A stretch of DNA of 64,000 nt. Origin: Atopobiaceae bacterium. Lineage in GTDB: Bacteria > Actinomycetota > Coriobacteriia > Coriobacteriales > Atopobiaceae. The notes beneath the pieces are model-generated. The model worked only from the letters and a program-made list of their open reading frames with translations, was not told where the DNA came from and did no database searches. Below, one piece after another: positions 3,301-14,225 of the stretch. The first letter of the stretch is position 1. Every line of letters begins with the position of its first letter. The translations under genes were made by a program, and so were the position numbers. The stretch covers positions 1,450,902-1,514,901 of the forward strand of contig JAKVOB010000001.1 in assembly GCA_022483015.1 (NCBI GenBank), given 5' to 3'.

Positions 3301-4464
3301 ACCGCTGCTGATGGCGGGGTCACCGGGTCGGCGGCTGACGGCTACACCCAGACCTTCACCAACACCTATGGCTACACCAACCTGACCGTCAACAAGACGT
3401 GGGACCACGGCACGCAGCCGCAGGCCGAGTGGCCGAGCAGTGCGGTGTACACGCTCTACAACGGCACCACCGCCATCGACTCCTGCACGCTGAGCGACGC
3501 CAACTCCTGGACCTACACATTCGAGGGCCTTCCGCGTGATGGCTCCTTCTCGCTGGTCGAGAGCTCCGTGGACGGCTACGCCACGACCGGTGGCACCGTC
3601 ACCGGCAACGCGACCGATGGCTACACCGCATCCTTCAAGAACACCTACACGCCGACCACGTTCACGGCCACCAAGGTCTGGGACCACGGCACGCAGGCCC
3701 AGGCCGACTGGCCGGGATCGGTCACGCTGCAGCTCTATGCCGACGGCGTGGCCACGGGCGCACCGGTGACCCTCACCAGCGCGGATGCCGACGTGAGCGG
3801 CAACTGGGTCTACACGTGGACCGACCTCGACCCCTCCGCGAACTACACGGTGAGCGAGACCGCCGTCGATGGCTACGGCACGACCGTGGGCGACGTGACG
3901 GGGACGGCTGCCGACGGCTATGCCGCGACGATCACCAACACCTTCGATCCCACCACCGTGACCGTCACCAAGACCTGGGACCACGGCACGCAGGACAAGG
4001 CTGACTGGCCTGCCTCCGTGACCGTCCACCTGTACAAGAACGGGACCGAGATCGCCAGCTTCGCGCTGAACGAGGCGAACGGCTGGAAGCACACCTTCAC
4101 CGGACTCGCATCGGGCGCGACCTACACCGTGACCGAGGACGACGTCACCGGATACACCGGCAAGGTCGGTACCATGACCGGGTCGGACGCGGACGGCTGG
4201 ACGGTGGACGTGAGCAACACCTATGACGCGCCGCCTGCGACCACGACGCCTGCGACCACGACGCCTGCGACCACGACGCCCGAGACCCCCGCGGCCACCT
4301 CACCTGCCACCACGCCGGACAACCCGGCGGCGACGCCGGTGAGCGACGAGGCCACCACGCCTCGCACGGGTGACACGACCACGTCTGCCGCGGCAATCAT
4401 GCTGGTCGCGCTCCTTGGCGTGGGCTGCCTGGCGGCGTGCGTCTGGTACCGCAGGAAGGCCTAG
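304..4464 (+). CDS. Cell-wall-anchored surface protein with seven Cna-B-type repeats
   Basis: The 1386-residue product starts at TTG 304, chosen because GAGGGAAGGGG lies 6-7 bases upstream and no in-frame ATG is near. A signal peptide covers about residues 1-32, with likely cleavage after AHA. The N-terminal half (about 33-600) is unassigned apart from a FlgD-like beta motif WDGKDANGNYVPAGTY near 457. Seven tandem Cna-B-like domains start near residues 610, 710, 813, 922, 1026, 1119 and 1218. Each carries a Lys before the first Trp (for example TKTWDHGTQ), a central Glu and an Asn in a terminal NTY/NTF-like motif, the residues that form intramolecular isopeptide bonds in this family. A Thr/Pro/Ala stalk, a TPRTG sorting motif (1352-1356), a hydrophobic helix and a YRRKA tail follow. 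It is probably an adhesin or pilin-like stalk attached by sortase. The ligand cannot be told from sequence. Confidence 0.9.
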   Translation: MNNATRRFSAPLIVSILLGLILCLCMAPQAHAEGTKDLVANGGYRPYTERYNALTQGENRLSVMHVYLKQGETAYFGTSVSTAKLYEVADNKNSGYLFSNAEMGTSFSDSELTYLNTADVYVAKGNYSSVTDALPYANGTLNSDVTLIDLPDASTSTTPGYIYDSTQEAGGVDVSGTGTGYKVSSTNGLTPVGSVAASAKTDANAFTAPSDGVYTVVFFSSGHTRQDPVKTLASNTTPFAQTQRGGTVASWDISVYDNGTLQTGRVFTSTLFLNMGGNVLGGNDSLDSTVYAVTNDGYKYKVDFNGMDPYGFMFFANNRGLLTTSTNSSLYHGVRSNNNQLSDIVNHDVTLNKEPSDSTLDETYNLFYESPSSDALTALGISDPSSGQGGVSDLKFTGTDDSTANEGYVGKGGTFSFTADANTSATSYQIELDFSSTGGGTVVLSNALKKGTTNTITWDGKDANGNYVPAGTYQTLNGKLKLKGGEVHFPLLDVEQNHAGIKIGRINGTGASESSPDYTVYFNNSSSNAGDTTSPWTLSKNWEVGNQTDATAGVSSENGAMAFTNTNTKNSAKGMNLVGDGDQCALDVWAYYNRTVDESNFSFKLVDTTFTVTKAWDRGTETNPKSVTMTLMDSDGNEVTTDATGTAILNPVTYDTTTSATYTWEHLDATKTYHVVETAIDSYTTAYGNVTGSATDGYAQTVTNTLKPTSLTINKVWDMNGSNEAHPTSVDVHVYTDSARTQEITGSPFTLNETNNWTITISDLDPMLTYYVYEDPVTGYSTYGDGQASGNANDGYTSTIANTFNSGDYMSVAVYKIWKGDGTYSAYQPSSVKMTLLKDGQPVTTDALGNTITNPVTLNAANSWYYVWPALLAKDTSSTGYTVSETDANGNPLQGYTSTFDGASFGHNFGFLGMSNEYKTTTFTVNKSWDNGVDANAPTSVTMQLQQSVDGGTTYTDYGSAVDLDEAGTWKHQWTDLPTYTAENKQILYRAVETSVTGYTAADGGVTGSAADGYTQTFTNTYGYTNLTVNKTWDHGTQPQAEWPSSAVYTLYNGTTAIDSCTLSDANSWTYTFEGLPRDGSFSLVESSVDGYATTGGTVTGNATDGYTASFKNTYTPTTFTATKVWDHGTQAQADWPGSVTLQLYADGVATGAPVTLTSADADVSGNWVYTWTDLDPSANYTVSETAVDGYGTTVGDVTGTAADGYAATITNTFDPTTVTVTKTWDHGTQDKADWPASVTVHLYKNGTEIASFALNEANGWKHTFTGLASGATYTVTEDDVTGYTGKVGTMTGSDADGWTVDVSNTYDAPPATTTPATTTPATTTPETPAATSPATTPDNPAATPVSDEATTPRTGDTTTSAAAIMLVALLGVGCLAACVWYRRKA

Positions 4465-4499
4465 CACGGCGTCGAGCCGCGCTCGATGAGAACGTCCTT

Positions 4500-4535
4500 G
4501 CCACCCCGTGCCGCCTCCTCGCGTCACGGGGTGGC
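4500..4535 (+). terminator. Hairpin after the surface protein gene
   Basis: A perfect 11-bp stem (GCCACCCCGTG at 4500-4510 with CACGGGGTGGC at 4525-4535) and a 14-base loop lies 36 bases after the stop codon. It has no T tract on the + strand, so termination is inferred from position and stem strength. Confidence 0.55.
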
Positions 4536-4596
4536 GTGCGTCCGAGGGTGCTTGCCGGAGGTGGGTCGTCGCGTCGAGGGGATCGCGCCACAGAAA

Positions 4597-4672
4597 ACTC
4601 CCCGCCGGAATCTGGGTTCCGACGGGGAGTGGCTGTGCCCGGGTCTTCCCCGGGCGGCGCGTCTTTTGACGC
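4597..4672 (-). terminator. Cluster of three hairpins; first is a reverse-strand terminator
   Basis: The first hairpin (ACTCCCCGCCGGAA at 4597-4610 with TTCCGACGGGGAGT at 4617-4630, one mismatch) is followed on the reverse strand by TTTTCTG, a classic intrinsic terminator for the flavoprotein gene to the right. Next to it are GCCCGGG/CCCGGGC (4637-4655) and GCGTC-TTTT-GACGC (4659-4672). The 334-base gap between the two convergent genes (4465-4798) contains no plausible gene; these hairpins and the ones at 4500-4535 and 4742-4790 are what it holds. Confidence 0.6.
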
Positions 4673-4741
4673 TCCTGAGTGACTCTCTTCTACCCGCGGG
4701 GGAGGTTCTGTTTCGCATCGCCCACGTGCCTACCGAATACC

Positions 4742-4790
4742 GCCCGAGACCTACCGCTCGCCCTCGGGCCACGAGGGGATGGTTCCTCTC
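4742..4790 (-). terminator. Two hairpins just downstream of the flavoprotein stop
   Basis: GCCCGAG (4742-4748) pairs with CTCGGGC (4763-4769), and GAGGGGA (4773-4779) pairs with TCCTCTC (4784-4790, one G-T pair). On the reverse strand they begin 9 bases after the stop codon of the 4799-6877 gene. There is no strong T tract. Confidence 0.4.
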
Positions 4791-4798
4791 GCCGTGTG

Positions 4799-6877
4799 TC
4801 AGAGCTCCATCGCGAGCTGGTAGGCGTCCCAGATGGCGCCCATGATGTTGTGGACGTGGCGCGAGTCGCCGATGTCATAGGTGATGACGTCCTCGCGGGA
4901 CAGCTCGTCATAGAGCCGGGTGTCGGCGCGGTAGCCCACGGCGAGCAGCGTCGTGTCGGCAGGTATCTCGTGGTTGCCGCCTGGTGTGCTCACCACCACC
5001 GAGGCCTCCTTGACCTCGCTCGCCGTGGACGACTCGTAGAGCGTGACGTGGTGGAAGGCAAGCTCGTCCTTGAGCATGTCGTAGTTGGCGAAGCACATAC
5101 CCTCGCCCCCACCCAGGATCTGGGACGTTGCCTCGACGATGGCGACCTCGTGGCCCTGCTCGGCGAGCCAGAGCGCGGTCTCGCATCCTACCAGCCCGCC
5201 GCCCACGATGCAGACGCGGTTGCCGGGCGTGACCTTGCCGGTGAGCACGTCGTCTGCCAGAACGGGGAGGCCCTTGCCGCCCAGGTCGACCTGGATCGGC
5301 GTGGCGCCGCTCGCCACCACCACGACGTCGGCGTGCGCGGCAAGGATGTTCTTGCGAGTGGCCTCCTGGCCGAGGTGGACGTCCACGGGGAGCTTGTCGA
5401 GCTGGCGCGTGTACCAGGCGACCAGCGCCCGGTCATCGGACTTGAAGTCGGGCGCCGAGCCCACGCACACGTTACCGCCCAGATGGTCGGACTTCTCCCA
5501 GAGCGTGACCTTGTGGCCGCGGATGGCCAAGGCGCGGGCGGCCTCCATGCCGGCAACGCCGCCACCTACCACGAGGACCTTGCGTGGGGTCGCGGTGGGC
5601 GTGAGGGCGAAGTCGCGCTCGCGGCCGCAGGCGGGGTTCACGGCACACGAGAGGGGTTGGCCCTCGGCGAGGCGGGCGAGGCAGCCCTGTTGGCACGACA
5701 GGCAGGGGCGGATGTCAGCCTCGTCGCCGACCTTCACCTTGTTGGCCCAGTCGGGGTCGGCCAGGAGTGGGCGGCCCAGGCCGATGAGGTCGCAGTCTCG
5801 TCCGATGGAGTCGGCCGCCATGTCGGGATCGTCCATGCGGCCGGCGCAGATGATGGGGGCCTTGATGCCGTTCTCCTTCATCGCACGAGCGAACTCGCGG
5901 TACATCCCCTTCTGGAAGTACATGGGCGGGTGGTTCCAGTACCAGGAGTCATAGGTGCCGGCGTCCACGTTGAACATGTCATAGCCGGCCTGCTCGAGGA
6001 TGTGCGCAGCCTCCAGGCCCTCCTCGAGGTCCTTGCCCTTCTCGTCGAAGTCCTCGCCGGGAAGCGCTCCGTGGCGAATCGCCTTCACGAAGCTCTTGAG
6101 GCTGTAGCGCAGCGAGACGGGGTAATCATCGCCACATGCGGCGTGGATGCCCTGGACGATCTCGATGGCGGGGCGCAGGCGGTTCTCGAGGGAGCCGCCG
6201 TACTCGTCGCCGCGCTCGTTGTAGAGGCCGATGGCGAACTGGTCGAGGAGGTAGCCCTCGTGCACGGCATGGACCTCGACGCCGTCGAAGCCGGCGTGCT
6301 GTGCCGATGCCGCACAGGCGACCATGTCGCGGATGAGCTTGTGGATCTCGTCTGCGGTCATTCCCTGCTGGTGGATGCTGGGGTCCCAGCGGTTCTCCTG
6401 GTCGGAGGGGGCATAGAACCGCTTGGCCATGGGCGGGATGACGACGCGGCCGAAGCCGGCCGATATCTGCAGGAACATCACGGAGTCGAAGGCGTGGATG
6501 CGCCCGATCATCTCGTGGGTGGTCTTGGCGAACCACACCGGGTCATAGGCCGCGCAGGGGACCGAGAAGTCGTGCATCTCGTCGTAGTTGGCCAGCGTGA
6601 CGCCGCTCATGACGAGGCCGGTGCCGCCGCGGGCGCGCTCGACGTAGTAGTCCTGCGCGCGCTGGGTGAAGCCGCCGCGGGAGTCTGACATGCAGACCAT
6701 GCCGAGCGGTGCCATCGAGATGCGGTTCTTCACGGTGAGCGAGCCTATCCTGATGGGCTCGAAGAGCTTGGAGCGGTCGTGCGGGGCGGGGCTTGCGTCG
6801 CGTGCGTGGTCGTGCTTGCCGGCGTGGTCGTGCTTCGAGGTGTGGTCGTGATCGTGCTTGCTGCCGTGCTTTGACAT
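4799..6877 (-). CDS. Old-yellow-enzyme-family FMN/FAD/4Fe-4S oxidoreductase with His-rich N-terminus
   Basis: This 692-residue flavoenzyme belongs to the NADH:flavin oxidoreductase / 2,4-dienoyl-CoA reductase (FadH, BaiCD-like) family. Residues about 35-370 form the FMN TIM barrel, starting LFEPIRIGSLTVKNRISMAP. A Cys cluster near 392-412 (CLSCQQGC and later SCAVNPACG) binds the 4Fe-4S centre. Two Rossmann motifs follow: VLVVGGGVAGMEAA near 432 for FAD and VCIVGGGLVGCETA for NAD(P)H. Relatives reduce activated C=C bonds in anaerobes; the substrate here is unknown. The start is ATG 6877, preceded by GGGAGC. It adds about 34 residues containing nine His in repeated KHDH units, which the family does not normally have. 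The gene stands alone, convergent with the surface protein and divergent from the FMN reductase. Confidence 0.85.
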   Translation of the reverse strand: MSKHGSKHDHDHTSKHDHAGKHDHARDASPAPHDRSKLFEPIRIGSLTVKNRISMAPLGMVCMSDSRGGFTQRAQDYYVERARGGTGLVMSGVTLANYDEMHDFSVPCAAYDPVWFAKTTHEMIGRIHAFDSVMFLQISAGFGRVVIPPMAKRFYAPSDQENRWDPSIHQQGMTADEIHKLIRDMVACAASAQHAGFDGVEVHAVHEGYLLDQFAIGLYNERGDEYGGSLENRLRPAIEIVQGIHAACGDDYPVSLRYSLKSFVKAIRHGALPGEDFDEKGKDLEEGLEAAHILEQAGYDMFNVDAGTYDSWYWNHPPMYFQKGMYREFARAMKENGIKAPIICAGRMDDPDMAADSIGRDCDLIGLGRPLLADPDWANKVKVGDEADIRPCLSCQQGCLARLAEGQPLSCAVNPACGRERDFALTPTATPRKVLVVGGGVAGMEAARALAIRGHKVTLWEKSDHLGGNVCVGSAPDFKSDDRALVAWYTRQLDKLPVDVHLGQEATRKNILAAHADVVVVASGATPIQVDLGGKGLPVLADDVLTGKVTPGNRVCIVGGGLVGCETALWLAEQGHEVAIVEATSQILGGGEGMCFANYDMLKDELAFHHVTLYESSTASEVKEASVVVSTPGGNHEIPADTTLLAVGYRADTRLYDELSREDVITYDIGDSRHVHNIMGAIWDAYQLAMEL

Positions 6878-8024: not shown

Positions 8025-9212
8025 ATGTCCTTCTACTCCGACCCCAGCTTCTTCTTCCTCCTCGCTGCTGTCGTGGCGGGGGCCGTCGTGCTGGGATTGC
8101 TCGAGCGCCCGCTCGGCCGCTATGGCCTGGTCGTCTCACTCGCCATGCTCGTCTGCCTCTTCTCGGACGACTGGTCAGGCCTCGTCCTGGCGCTTGCCTC
8201 CGTGGCCCTGGGATATGTCGCCACCCGTCTCGTGCTGGCCCGCTGCTCGAGCGAGCGCGGCCTCACCGCACCCGTGCGCCTCCTTGGCCTTGCTGCGGCC
8301 ATCGGCCCGCTCGTGGTCTATAAGGTCACGACGGCGGCTGCCGCCCCCTTGGGCGGCTTCATCGGCATCTCGTACATGACGTTCAAGATCACGCAGGTCC
8401 TCCTCGAGGTGGAGGACGGCCTCATCACCGACCTCCCCTTCCTCGACTACGTCGGCTTCCTCGTCTTCTTCCCGGTCTTCACCTCAGGCCCCATCGACCG
8501 CTCGCGCCGCTTCATGGCAGACGCCCACAAGGCACGTCCGCGTGCCGAGTACCTCGATCTTCTCGGCCGAGGCATCGTGCAGCTCCTGGTGGGCGCGGCG
8601 ATGCAGATGGTGCTCGCGACGCTTGCCAGGCAGTACTACCAGCCGGCGGCGATCGACCTCACCAAGGATCTCGGACCGCAGCTGCAGACCGCCTTCGTGA
8701 CCGCCTGGGCCTACGCGGGCTTCCTCTACTTCGACTTCGCCGGCTACTCCCTCATGGCGCAGGGGGCCTCTCGCGCGCTCGGCATCGACACGCCGGCCAA
8801 CTTCCGCCTCCCGTTCCTCTCGTGCTCGATGGAGGAGTTCTGGGACCGCTGGCACATCACGCTCTCGCATTGGCTGCGCGACTACGTCTTCATGCGCCTC
8901 GAGCGCTCGCTCACGCGGCACCGAATCCCCAGGAAGCGGGACACCCGCGCCGCCGTCGGCCTCATCGCCGACATGTGCCTCATGGGGGCCTGGCATGGCA
9001 TCGCGCCGCAGTACCTCCTCTACGGGCTGTACCACGGACTCCTCCTTGCCGGCGAGACGCTCATGCGACGTCGCTGGCATTTCTACAAGGTCCACCATGC
9101 CGACCTGCCCGTGCGGGTCGTATGCTGGTTCGTGACCATCAACCTGGTGGTCATCGGATTCACGCTCTTCTCCGGTCAGGCGTTCACGTTCCTAGGAGGA
9201 ATTCATGGCTGA
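8025..9212 (+). CDS. dltB: DltB-like MBOAT-family D-alanyl transferase
   Basis: This 395-residue polytopic membrane protein is a membrane-bound O-acyltransferase. It carries the family landmarks FDFAGYSLMAQG, FWDRWHITLSHWLRDYVF and GAWHG, with catalytic His324. In the D-alanylation pathway DltB takes D-alanine from DltC-phosphopantetheine on the cytoplasmic side and passes it across the membrane to teichoic acid or another wall glycan. ATG 8025 has AGGGGAG about 10 bases upstream. It is the first gene of a tight run: its last 8 bases overlap dltC, and dltD and the DltX-like gene follow. The gene context supports DltB over an alginate-acetylating AlgI. Confidence 0.9.
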   Translation: MSFYSDPSFFFLLAAVVAGAVVLGLLERPLGRYGLVVSLAMLVCLFSDDWSGLVLALASVALGYVATRLVLARCSSERGLTAPVRLLGLAAAIGPLVVYKVTTAAAAPLGGFIGISYMTFKITQVLLEVEDGLITDLPFLDYVGFLVFFPVFTSGPIDRSRRFMADAHKARPRAEYLDLLGRGIVQLLVGAAMQMVLATLARQYYQPAAIDLTKDLGPQLQTAFVTAWAYAGFLYFDFAGYSLMAQGASRALGIDTPANFRLPFLSCSMEEFWDRWHITLSHWLRDYVFMRLERSLTRHRIPRKRDTRAAVGLIADMCLMGAWHGIAPQYLLYGLYHGLLLAGETLMRRRWHFYKVHHADLPVRVVCWFVTINLVVIGFTLFSGQAFTFLGGIHG

Positions 9213-9453
9213 CGCATCCGAGGTCAAGGACAGGCTGCTTGACGATCTGGCGGACATCTGTGCTGACGAGGGGGTCCGCGACGACCTCGACGAGGACCTC
9301 TTCACCGCAGGGCTGCTCGACTCCATGGGGGCCATCGAGCTGCTCGTGGCCATCGAGGAGGACTTCGGCGTCAAGATCGCTCCGACGGCCGTCCCGCGCG
9401 ACCAGATGAACACCGCCAACAAGATCATCGCCCAGGTCGCGAGCCGTCTCTAG
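9205..9453 (+). CDS. dltC: D-alanyl carrier protein DltC
   Basis: This 82-residue acidic acyl-carrier protein has the phosphopantetheine site GLLDSMGAIELLVAIEE, with attachment at Ser40. It carries D-alanine activated by DltA to DltB. The start at ATG 9205 has a near-perfect AGGAGG five bases away, inside the end of dltB, so translation is probably coupled. Length and position match DltC (usually about 78-82 residues). Confidence 0.92.
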   Translation: MADASEVKDRLLDDLADICADEGVRDDLDEDLFTAGLLDSMGAIELLVAIEEDFGVKIAPTAVPRDQMNTANKIIAQVASRL

Positions 9454-9456
9454 CCC

Positions 9457-10773
9457 ATGTCTGACGAACCTGCCACAGACCACGTGACGCCCGCCGAGAA
9501 GGACGTGCCTGTCGCGAACGCGTCGCCCGCCGCCGGCGAGGCCTCGTCTGTCGACCCTATGCTGTCTCGCCGGGCCTTCCTGCGGCTCGCTGGCCTGGGT
9601 GTGGGCGCGCTCGCCGTGGGAGGCGGCCTGGCCGCCGCGGACTCGGCCGTGCCCGCGGCCTCTGCGGTGGGTCCACGCCTCTACGACTACGCCTTCGTCC
9701 GCGACAAGTTCAAGAGTCCGGCCTTCGCGCTCGCGAACCGTCAGGCCGACTCGATCCTCTCGTTCGGCTCGTCCGAGTTCCGCACCTACGTCTCGACGGT
9801 TCCCCAGATGCCGCGCGCGGTCTTCGGCGACCACGACTGCGGCCTCGACATGTGGGTCATAGGGGAGGGCTATAACCAGAGCCTCTGGCACTCGATCGCC
9901 TTCGGGGCCTACGCCGGCGCGCTCGACGACACCGACCCTGGCGGCATCTACGCCGACGGCTCGCGGAAGGCCGTCTTCATCGTCTCGCCCCAGTGGTTCT
10001 ACGAGGGAGGGGTGCCCGCCAACGCCTCGCGCTCGCTCTTCTCGTACAACCTCTGGCACGGCTTCTGCGCCAACCCGCGCGTCTCGGCCGACTCGGTCGC
10101 CTACGCACGGCAGCGCCTGCTCGACCTCGGCGTCGACTCCACGAAGGTGTGGGCTGGCACGCACAACATGGTCACGGACGCCCTGAACGACGTCTACCTC
10201 CAGGCCAAGGAGGACTACGACGTCCGGAAGCTCCTGGTGGACGTCCGCGCGTCGAAGGGCGACGAGATGCCTTCCGCCAAGGTGGGCGCCACGGGGTGCG
10301 AGGGAACGCCCGACTGGGACGCCCTGTGGCAGCAGGCGTTGGTCGACGGCGAGGCACATTGCACCACCAACTCCTTCTACATCGACGACGAGGTCTGGAA
10401 CCGCGAGGACGCCAAGCCCTACTCGGCCGGCACGCTCAGGAACTACCTGTCCAAGCGCACGTTCCTCAAGGCCCCGACCGAGGACGCCGACCTCGACCAT
10501 GCGCTCACCGTGGCGAGCGAGGTGGGCCTCGAGCTGCTGGTGGTCCTTCTTCCCGTGGGCGGCCCGTGGTACGACTACGAGGGCTTTCCCAACGACGACC
10601 GCGACCAGCGCTACGAGCTCGTGCGCGACACGGTCTCGGCGCACGGGACGCAGCTCTGCGACCTCTCGGGCTACGAGTACGAGCCGTTCTTCACCTGCGA
10701 CGGCACGCACCTGGGCTGGACCGGATGGGTGGCTGCCGAGAAGGCCATCTACGAGTTCGCGAAGGGGGCATGA
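9457..10773 (+). CDS. dltD: DltD-like lipoteichoic acid D-alanylation protein with Tat-like signal
   Basis: The 438-residue protein has a twin-arginine-like N-terminal segment, SRRAFLRLAGLGVGALAVGG (about 37-56), then an extracellular SGNH/DltD domain. Ser106 in FGSSEF and Asp415/His418 in CDGTHLGW form the expected catalytic triad. DltD completes delivery of D-alanine to the glycan acceptor outside the membrane. It starts 3 bases after dltC. No strong ribosome site precedes ATG 9457, and an internal ATG at 9559 (MLSRRAFLRL) would give a more usual Tat signal, so the true start could be there. The Tat-like motif is unusual because Firmicutes DltD carries a plain membrane anchor. Confidence 0.87.
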   Translation: MSDEPATDHVTPAEKDVPVANASPAAGEASSVDPMLSRRAFLRLAGLGVGALAVGGGLAAADSAVPAASAVGPRLYDYAFVRDKFKSPAFALANRQADSILSFGSSEFRTYVSTVPQMPRAVFGDHDCGLDMWVIGEGYNQSLWHSIAFGAYAGALDDTDPGGIYADGSRKAVFIVSPQWFYEGGVPANASRSLFSYNLWHGFCANPRVSADSVAYARQRLLDLGVDSTKVWAGTHNMVTDALNDVYLQAKEDYDVRKLLVDVRASKGDEMPSAKVGATGCEGTPDWDALWQQALVDGEAHCTTNSFYIDDEVWNREDAKPYSAGTLRNYLSKRTFLKAPTEDADLDHALTVASEVGLELLVVLLPVGGPWYDYEGFPNDDRDQRYELVRDTVSAHGTQLCDLSGYEYEPFFTCDGTHLGWTGWVAAEKAIYEFAKGA

Positions 10774-10774
10774 C

Positions 10775-11053
10775 ATGGCCGAGAAGAACCTCCGGGCTAG
10801 GAAGGCCTCCCAAGCTGTGCCCGCGGGCACGACGTCGCCTGCGGGTGGGACGACCCCGGCAGCTACGACGGCGGCTGCGGGTGCCGGTCGGCTTTCGCGG
10901 CTCCGCACGTGGGCACGGACGTTCGCGGCCTCGCCTGCCGCCGCGTTCCTGGTCGGCCTGGTGGTGGTCTGCGCGGTCGCGCTTCTCGTCTGGTGGTTCG
11001 TGATGGACTCGGGCATCGGAGCCCCTGCCGGCTTCGTCTACCAGGAGTACTGA
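10775..11053 (+). CDS. Small membrane protein with DltX-type C-terminal motif
   Basis: The 92-residue protein begins at ATG 10775, immediately after the dltD stop. It has a basic, Ala/Thr-rich N-terminus, one transmembrane helix (about 53-77) and ends exactly in FVYQEY (87-92). Firmicutes DltX is a single-pass protein of about 50 residues, encoded in dlt operons, that ends in FIYxEF-like residues; its Tyr is thought to help pass the acyl group from DltB to DltD. Position, topology and the C-terminal motif all fit. It is longer than DltX because of its N-terminal extension. The assignment is by motif and context, not overall similarity. Confidence 0.7.
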   Translation: MAEKNLRARKASQAVPAGTTSPAGGTTPAATTAAAGAGRLSRLRTWARTFAASPAAAFLVGLVVVCAVALLVWWFVMDSGIGAPAGFVYQEY

Positions 11054-11331: not shown

Positions 11332-12982
11332 ATGGATTCGTCGAGAAACGCCCTGCTCGCTGCAGTCGAGGAGCAGGCCCATCGCACGCCGGACGCGATC
11401 GCCTGGGAGACGAGCGATGGCGACCTCCTCACCTATGGCGAGCTGTGGGATGCCTCTGACGACCTGGCATGCAAGCTGCGCGACATCCCGGCCCCGGACG
11501 AGGACGTCGTGGTCTACGGCAACAAGAGCCCCCTCATGGTCTGTGCCTTCCTGGCCTGCCTCAAGTCGGGGCATGCCTATGTCCCTACCGACTCCGGCGT
11601 CCCGGACGCCCGCGTGGCAAACATCCTCGGCCAGCTCCATGCCACCTGCGTCATAGCGGTGGACCCCCTCTCGGTCGAGGCCACCCAGGACCGGCCCGGC
11701 ATGCGGCTCGTCGGTCCCTCCGAGCTCCGCGACTCGCTCTCCGCGGCACGCAGCGCCAGCCCCGCGCGACCGCGTCGTAGGCTGGGAGGTCACCGGTGCG
11801 GCCACCCAGTACGTCATCTTCACGTCGGGCTCGACGGGCGCCCCCAAGGGCGTCGAGGTCTCGGCCGATGACGTCGCCAACTTCATGCCGTGGGACCGGT
11901 CGCTCTTCGCAGGCGCGACCCATCCCGCGACCTTCGTGAACCAGGCGCTCCTCTCGTTCGACCTGTCGGTCACCGAGCTCGTGGCCGCCCTCTCGACCGG
12001 CTCGCGCGTCTTCTCGCTCACCACGCCCTGCCAGCACGACCTCTCTCTGTGCTTCAAGCGCCTGGCGGCCTCGGGTGCCACCTGCTGGGTGTCGACGCCC
12101 TCGTTCGTGACGATGTGCCTGGCGGACCCCTCGTTCGGCCCCGACCTCATGCCAGACCTCACGCACTTCTTCTTCTGTGGCGAGGCGCTCGTGCCTGCCG
12201 TGGCTCGCGAGCTCCTCGACCGCTTCCCGGGCGCACACGTGGTGAACGCCTACGGTCCTACCGAATCGACCGTGGCGGTCTCGTCCGTCGAGGTCACGCC
12301 CCAGATGGCTGCCGCAGACGAGCTCCCGGTGGGCGTCCCCCGCAAGGGCACGCGCATCCTCGTGTGCGACCCGGCGACCGGCAAGGTCATGGTTCCCGGT
12401 GCGCAGGGCGAGATCGTGATCTGTGGTGACACCGTCGCCACCGGCTACTACGGGGAGCCTGACAAGACCCGCGCCGTCTTCGGCACCAGGCAGGTCGATG
12501 GCACGACCATGCGCACCTACCGCACCGGCGACCTCGGCCATGTGGACGAGAAGGGCATGCTGTGGTGTGCCGGCCGCATCGACGGTCAGGTCAAGGTCAA
12601 CGGCTATCGCATCGAGCTGGGCGAGGTGGAGTCGGCCCTCACGGACGCCCCTGAGGTCAAGCTCGCCTGCGTCGTGGTCCGTCGCCGCCGTGTGTCGTCG
12701 TGCCTCGAGGCGCACGTGGAGCTCGTGGGCGACCATGGGACCGATGACGTGGCCCGTCTCGCCCGTGACCTCAGGTGCCGCCTGGCCGGCAGGCTGCCCG
12801 CCTACATGGTCCCCCGACGCATCGTGGTCGAGCCTGAGGTGGCGCTCACGCCCAACGGCAAGATCGACCGGAAGGTCTACCAGGCTCCCGCAGCCGAGAC
12901 GTCCCGCAGGTCCTCGCACGCTCCGCACGTCTCGCGCCCCGCTCCCGTAGCCGCAGCGCTCGCTCCGCGATTCAATGCCTAA
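11332..12982 (+). CDS. dltA: D-alanine--D-alanyl carrier protein ligase DltA, frameshifted in this sequence
   Basis: This is an adenylation enzyme that activates D-alanine with ATP and loads it on DltC. ATG 11332 follows GGAACGAGG. The first about 144 codons run in one frame to about 11760 and the rest in the next frame, so one extra base lies in 11760-11767 (a run of four C). Joined, the product is about 549 residues and intact. It has A3 FTSGSTGAPKG, A5 NAYGPTEST, A7 YRTGDL, A8 VKVNGYRIELGEVE and A10 PNGKIDRK with the catalytic Lys. It is normally the first gene of a dlt operon; here it follows dltBCDX as a separate unit. The break may be a consensus error or a real mutation. Confidence 0.85.
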
Positions 12983-13040: not shown

Positions 13041-13060
13041 TCGTGAAGCGAGGAGGAACC

Positions 13061-14225
13061 GTGGCAAATCGCATCGTGCTCAACACCATCTCCTATCACG
13101 GAGAGGGCGCCATCGACGAGATCTCAGGTGAGATCGAGAGGCGTGGCCATACAAAGGCCTTCGTCTGCTCTGACCCTGACCTCGTGAAGTTCGGTGTCAC
13201 GGACAAGGTCACGCAGAAGCTCGACGCGGCCGGCATCCCGTGGTCGCTCTACTCCGAGATCAAGCCCAACCCGACCATCAAGAACGTCCAGGACGGCGTC
13301 GCGGCCTTCCAGGCGTCCAGCGCCGACTGCATCGTGGCCATCGGCGGTGGCTCGTCCATGGACACGGCCAAGGGCATCGGCATCATCGCCACCAACCCCG
13401 AGTTCGCCGACGTGCGCTCGCTCGAGGGCGTGGCCCCCACCAAGAACCATGCCGTCTTCACCATCGCCGTCCCCACCACGGCGGGCACCGCGGCCGAGGT
13501 CACCATCAACTATGTGATCACCGACCCTGAGAGGCGCCGCAAGTTCGTCTGCGTCGACACCAACGACATCCCCGAGGTCGCTTGCGTCGACCCGGCCATG
13601 ATGGCGAGCATGCCCGTGGGCCTCACGGCATCGACCGGCATGGACGCGCTCACGCACGCCATCGAGGGCTACACCACCAAGGCCGCCTGGCAGATCCCCG
13701 ACATGTTCCACCTCGAGGCCATCCGTCTCATCTCCGAGAACCTGCGTGACGCCGTCGCCGAGGCCAAGTCCGGCACGCCCGGCACCGGCCGCGAGGCCAT
13801 GGCCCTTGGCCAGTACATCGCCTGGCATGGGCTTCTCCAACGTCGGTCTGGGCATCGCCCACTCCATGGCCCACTGCCTGGGAGCTAACTACGATACGCC
13901 CCACGGCGTGGCCTGCGCGATGATGCTCCCCAACGTCATGGAGTACAACGCCCCGGTCTGCGCGTCGCGCATGCGTGACGTCGCCGTCGCCATGGGCGTC
14001 GAGGGCGCCAAGGACATGACCCCCGAGGCCGGTGCCGCCGCTGCGGTGGCAGCCGTCCGCCAGCTCGGCGAGGACGTGGGCATCCCCAAGGTGGTCGACG
14101 CCCTCAAGGAGGACGACCTCGACCGTCTCGCGACCGACACCCTGGCCGACGCCTGCTGCCCAGGCAACCCCCGCGACGCGACCGCCGACGACGTCAAGGA
14201 CCTGTTCCGCAAGGTCATGAGGTAA
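13061..14225 (+). CDS. fucO: Lactaldehyde reductase FucO-like iron-dependent alcohol dehydrogenase, frameshifted in this sequence
   Basis: This group III iron-containing alcohol dehydrogenase closely matches the FucO pattern: IAIGGGSSMDTAKGIGII, a long identical-looking block PTTAGTAAEVTINYVITD, and metal ligands in DALTHAIEGY, HSMAHCLG and DTPHGV. FucO reduces L-lactaldehyde from fucose or rhamnose breakdown to 1,2-propanediol, regenerating NAD+. GTG 13061 is chosen because GAGGAGGAACC precedes it; joined length is about 387 residues, close to the usual 382. Around 13820-13824 the frame changes. The expected QYIAGMGFSN is obtained only by removing one base (the T at 13823). The downstream frame is otherwise complete to the TAA at 14223-14225. 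Confidence 0.85.

Follow-up and report, generated by a model that had tools for sequence, protein, structure and literature searches.

The window, that is, the whole 64,000-nucleotide stretch of a gut-type actinobacterium analysed here, carries a dlt cluster in the order dltB-dltC-dltD-X-dltA, where X is a short ORF. The features of the cluster are as follows.

8025..9212, + strand: dltB, MBOAT acyltransferase (TIGR04091, 389 bits, cut-off 375)
9205..9453, + strand: dltC, D-alanyl carrier protein (NF003464, 78 bits, cut-off 68)
9457..10773, + strand: dltD, SGNH-type transferase (PF04914, 207 bits; TIGR04092, 192 bits, cut-off 150; FGSSEF and DGTHLG motifs)
10775..11053, + strand: ORF assigned to a divergent DltX, 92 aa (ATG at 10775, stop TGA at 11051-11053)
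10943..11005, + strand: single predicted transmembrane (TM) helix of DltX, about residues 57-77 (hydrophobic stretch, by sequence)
11033..11050, + strand: C-terminal acyl-shuttle hexapeptide FVYQEY (in-register alignment with FIYNEF of Bacilli DltX)
11332..12982, + strand: dltA, D-alanine-DltC ligase (reading frame shifted by +1 near 11757-11775 in the assembly)

Both conserved His residues were found in the DltB of the window: H277, which is nearly invariant, and H324, which is invariant. The start of DltD (9457-9640) contains a Tat-like twin-arginine stretch (MLSRRAFLRLAGLGVGA). Similar DltD N-termini occur in seven other genomes (G020, G035, G040, G046, G050, G052 and G209), and TatC is encoded in the genome of the window (G000).

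The ATG of the DltX ORF lies one base beyond the dltD stop codon (10771-10773) and is immediately preceded by a GGGGG run. Analysis of the ORF confirmed the first-pass annotation of a small protein after dltD with one TM segment and ending exactly in FVYQEY. The basic residues of RLSRLRTWAR lie on the N-terminal side of the TM segment. Based on hydrophobicity and these basic residues, the protein is predicted to be N-in/C-out, with its tail outside the cytoplasm. It thus has the form expected of DltX: a small, single-pass protein of predicted N-in/C-out topology encoded within a dlt cluster. The tail comprises F87, V88, Y89, Q90, E91 and Y92. With respect to the FXYXXF motif, position 1 is Phe (F87) and position 3 is the invariant Tyr (Tyr89 of 92; codon TAC, 11039-11041), the putative relay residue. 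Position 6 is Tyr (Y92) rather than Phe, as it is in the congener G020, and the protein was therefore filed as a variant and not as a strict member. Accordingly, the likeness to the aromatic-Tyr tail of Firmicutes that had been proposed holds for the Phe, the Tyr and the final aromatic residue, while the last residue departs from FXYXXF (PMC12148441). The long N-terminal extension noted earlier is also present: the protein has 92 residues versus 65 in G020, the only congener with the gene, and mostly 50-70 across the class. The additional ~27 N-terminal residues are mainly an Ala/Thr/Pro-rich insertion, and the extension is specific to the species.

The dltA gene is interrupted by its +1 frame change, and no intact copy of equal quality was found in the genome. 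Its orthologue in G020 is a single open frame. An iron-type alcohol dehydrogenase gene next to dltA (13043-14225) is also frameshifted, near 13825-13840. As both genes are affected, sequencing error is likely but unproven; unless it is the cause, the pathway may be inactive in the strain. The frame change in dltA, together with the existence, in the genome G075, of a second dlt locus that has decayed but keeps its DltX, could mean that the cluster is decaying in the window strain and that its DltX is an unused relic. This is compatible with descent from DltX. Nevertheless, the frameshift in the neighbouring dehydrogenase gene is consistent with assembly errors, the other four genes of the cluster (dltB, dltC, dltD and DltX) have open frames, and dltA is intact in G020. 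We therefore regard decay as unlikely, though a reading to be kept in mind.

Standard models do not detect the protein. PF12459, the Pfam DltX model (curated cut-off of 25 bits), gave no match to it even at E 10 and, over the whole genome, nothing at the DltX gene, the best hit (E 0.5) lying elsewhere. Across 296 Coriobacteriia genomes, the model yielded one weak match (18 bits) and none above 25 bits. The prediction that the protein would be overlooked by similarity search was thus borne out. Among 43 Coriobacteriia DltX sequences, 7 were weakly matched (best, 18.8 bits); Bacilli DltX from plasmid records scored 57-74 bits. Even among Bacillota DltX, only 24 of 55 sequences matched at E 0.01, indicating that PF12459 is narrow in general and not only with respect to Coriobacteriia. 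NCBIfam returned a DltX match for 0 of the 98 sequences tried, and a PDB sequence search using the window DltX returned no match. Hits to PF06724 (DUF1206; E 0.0026) and to the HokA model (E 0.055) were rejected as chance, both being below cut-off and located on the TM stretch.

In a profile-profile comparison, the alignment of the 43 Coriobacteriia sequences to the 55 Bacillota DltX yielded an E-value of 7.4e-8, with the register held to the last residue. Upon removal of the hexapeptide, the value was 1.1e-4 versus 0.016 for the best decoy, where the decoys were TM segments of DltB and all E-values apply to single comparisons. Against Latilactobacillus DltX, the window protein gave a BLASTP E-value of 2e-4, with SGIGAPAGFVYQEY aligned over SGIGSPKFIYNEF. 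The protein is thus homologous in sequence to the DltX of Bacillota. A genome scan yielded bridging loci from Lachnospiraceae, other Clostridia, Gemella and streptococci. Over all of these, the dlt gene order is circularly permuted and X stays at the junction of D and A. Bacilli have X-A-B-C-D; most Clostridia and Coriobacteriia, A-B-C-D-X; some Clostridium, D-X-A-B-C; and the window and its congener, B-C-D-X-A. The DltX-like identity first proposed is upheld by the profile match and by the place of the gene in the cluster, and the window protein is almost certainly a highly diverged DltX. Our literature search yielded no publication on the dlt genes or DltX of Coriobacteriia; the primary relay paper (Nat Microbiol 2023) may already list Coriobacteriia homologues.

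To establish the distribution of the protein, the flanks of dltD were read in the genomes encoding DltD: 45 of 140 in the family and 64 of 296 in the class. A single-pass ORF directly follows dltD in nearly all Coriobacteriia dltD loci examined. Moreover, nearly every locus uncut by a contig end encodes, beside dltD, a single-pass microprotein that has Tyr at -4 and terminates in Phe or Tyr. Such ORFs were seen in Atopobiaceae, Eggerthellaceae, Coriobacteriaceae and two further families, with tails such as FIYSQY (the congener), FVYGGF, FIYNQF, FVYEQF and, in one case, LIYAGF. A DltX of their own is lacking at loci truncated by a contig end, L019 among them, and for the second dltD (F lineage) of Olsenella sp. 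SW781. The place after dltD is not peculiar to Coriobacteriia, as X lies there in most Clostridia loci too. In a sample of the phylum, DltD was present in 7 of 346 genomes, all Coriobacteriia of a single order. The label "actinobacterial" previously given to the protein is therefore correct as to the host class, Coriobacteriia, but does not extend to the rest of the phylum sample, where DltD was lacking.

In 74 Coriobacteriia proteins, position 1 of the hexapeptide was F in 62, P in 11 and L in 1; position 3 was Y in all 74, the set having been selected on this Tyr; and position 6 was F in 71 and Y in 3. Because this set was chosen by motif, the tail test was repeated on a motif-blind set: TM-bearing ORFs of 35-130 aa starting -60 to +150 bases from the dltD stop. 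Tyr occurred at -4 in 98 of these 103 ORFs and was combined with F/Y at -1 in 96, the loci being partly redundant. In a six-frame comparison using all TM ORFs of the same loci, the corresponding number was 205 of 1348 and was dominated by true DltX genes. The dltD genes that lacked a following TM ORF were mainly those of Bacilli, in which X precedes dltA, of P-type loci (see below) and at contig ends. Tyr is the sole invariant residue of the tail: the first Phe is replaced by Pro, Leu or Tyr, and the last by Tyr.

The coding sequence of the tail is constrained as well. Over the last 15 codons of 18 related Atopobiaceae sequences, there were 1042 synonymous versus 196 nonsynonymous pairwise differences; the six tail residues are identical in all of the proteins, and synonymous sites vary. 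This codon pattern reflects purifying selection on the DltX tail, and FVYQEY is not a chance sequence. It had been set beforehand that the proposal would be refuted if orthologues did not conserve the last six residues; they do. Finally, a Coriobacteriia DltX profile searched over the 140 family genomes found strong matches only beside dltD, except at one relic locus (G075). Most of the matched sequences had trained the profile, but that of G097 (P-type) had not. The relic (L220, about 4100-4800) is a second dlt locus consisting of dltC, a DltX ending in FVYNQF and a 23-residue remnant of DltD.

A strict FXYXXF scan had suggested that DltX is absent from Collinsella-type and a few other loci. 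This was rejected, as relaxing position 1 revealed a P-type DltX with tails such as PVYAEF, PAYAAY, PIYEGF and PVYENF. The P-type genes lie mostly between dltC and dltD but, in two Adlercreutzia-type loci, between dltD and dltA. The F-type and P-type sets matched in profile comparison with E 6e-15. When mapped on a tree built from 123 DltD, the P label required 3 changes versus 15.3 for shuffled labels, and 15 of the 16 P-labelled rows fell within a single branch of 21 rows (support 100). The remaining row is the second DltD of Olsenella sp. SW781, which belongs to the F lineage. In this locus (L045 3920-9762 / L130), the genes are ordered A-B-X(P-type)-D-C-D, and of the two DltD one is of the P clade and the other of the F clade. 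A foreign X-D pair appears to have been acquired here. That the P-type tail tracks one DltD clade suggests that position 1 of the hexapeptide is read by DltD; the pairing may also be plain co-inheritance, which is inseparable here from such reading. It is thus a tentative proposal, somewhat short of an even chance, that Coriobacteriia have at least two co-adapted kinds of DltX, an F-type and a P-type that travels with its own DltD clade. If so, position 1 would be a DltD-recognition site and the chemistry would be performed by the Tyr alone.

Compared to known systems, the window protein resembles the DltX of Bacilli (PF12459, formerly DUF3687; B. thuringiensis, lactobacilli, enterococci) in being a small, single-pass N-in/C-out protein of a dlt operon, with an F-x-Y-x-x-aromatic tail and profile homology in register. 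It differs in being below Pfam detection, in its length (92 versus about 50 aa) and in its final Tyr in place of Phe. Its gene follows dltD and precedes dltA, whereas that of Bacilli is first in the operon, and a Leu conserved among Bacilli DltX (PMC5541007) varies in Coriobacteriia. The DltX-like ORFs of Clostridia, Gemella and some streptococci also follow dltD (A-B-C-D-X), with tails such as KFVYSQF and GFTYAEF, but have a shorter N-terminus and, in the sample, always end in Phe. The Collinsella-type DltX (PxYxx[FY]) is likewise a single-pass microprotein of a dlt cluster with profile homology to that of the window; it differs in having Pro for the first Phe, a gene mostly between dltC and dltD, and its own DltD clade. 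PatA-type MBOAT proteins share with DltX an acyl-shuttle hexapeptide (FXYXXF) and acyl-Tyr chemistry (PMC12148441). However, in these the hexapeptide is part of the MBOAT itself, carried on additional TM helices, the donor is acyl-CoA and there is no carrier protein, whereas the window encodes a separate microprotein with DltA and DltC.

Several related loci were encountered. L104 (9-1553), L105 (91-1644) and L140 encode, next to their dlt genes, a second MBOAT whose C-terminus is YNPFIYFQF, a fused shuttle of the PatA type. A Subdoligranulum MBOAT (L128, 3123-4598) has a fused tail ending in TPIYFQF, with Pro at position 1. Oral streptococci (L157, L166, L167) have a B-D-X cluster, in L157 as A-B-C-B-D-X with two DltB, which is apparently a second MBOAT-SGNH-shuttle system. 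A plasmid dlt operon of Lactobacillus helsingborgensis (L121, 4976-7234) is without a recognisable DltX, and its DltD is unusually long (752 aa).

In the reviewed route, D-alanine is passed by DltB from DltC to the invariant Tyr of the DltX tail (motif FXYXXF) and goes on to the Ser of DltD (PMC12148441). In PatA, acetylation of the equivalent Tyr was shown directly, and a Tyr-to-Phe substitution abolishes labelling (PMC12148441). In B. thuringiensis, D-alanylation requires DltX, whose topology is also N-in/C-out (PMC5541007). Very probably, the window protein is a diverged DltX that acts as this published acyl-Tyr shuttle between DltB and DltD. The single-pass protein (N-in, C-out) would sit with DltB and DltD. 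DltB would take D-alanine from D-Ala-DltC and place it on Tyr89 in the extracytoplasmic tail, which would then swing to DltD for transfer of the D-alanine to a surface polymer. Both this complex and the covalent charging of Tyr89 are inferred from what has been published on DltX and PatA (PMC12148441). What the sequences themselves establish is the gene, its constant position within dlt clusters, the invariant Tyr, a tail under purifying selection and profile kinship with Bacillota DltX. The variation within Coriobacteriia fits a relay, with the Tyr constant and the aromatic flanks variable.

A protein descended from DltX could instead be a structural adaptor that joins DltB and DltD, with the Tyr serving in packing rather than in carrying D-alanine. 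Indeed, the DltX and DltD helices have been suggested as possible regulators of DltB (PMC11035591), and the aromatic residues flanking the Tyr are also largely kept. Nevertheless, it is only the Tyr that never varies, the flanking positions admitting the replacements described above, and the labelling of the equivalent Tyr of PatA and its loss upon substitution with Phe (PMC12148441) point to a carrier; we consider an adaptor improbable. That the ORF is spurious, or an unrelated small membrane protein with a tail DltX-like by chance, is refuted for practical purposes: neither Pfam nor NCBIfam assigns it a family and its N-terminus is low-complexity Ala/Thr/Pro, but the place and tail are conserved class-wide, selection acts at the codon level, and the profiles match with and without the motif.

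As a shuttle, the protein would extend acyl-Tyr relay to a whole class of Actinomycetota in which the Pfam DltX stays below its cut-off; the same model also misses many Bacillota DltX. The finding raises the question of which polymer would be D-alanylated: despite its dlt cluster, no LtaS (PF00884) or TagF-type (PF04464) polymerase was found in the genome of the window. For the relay model, the natural variation of the tail amounts to an independent test by evolution, and it points to the residues worth mutating. The finding is of value mainly for annotation and as a mutational experiment of nature on the acyl-Tyr shuttle.
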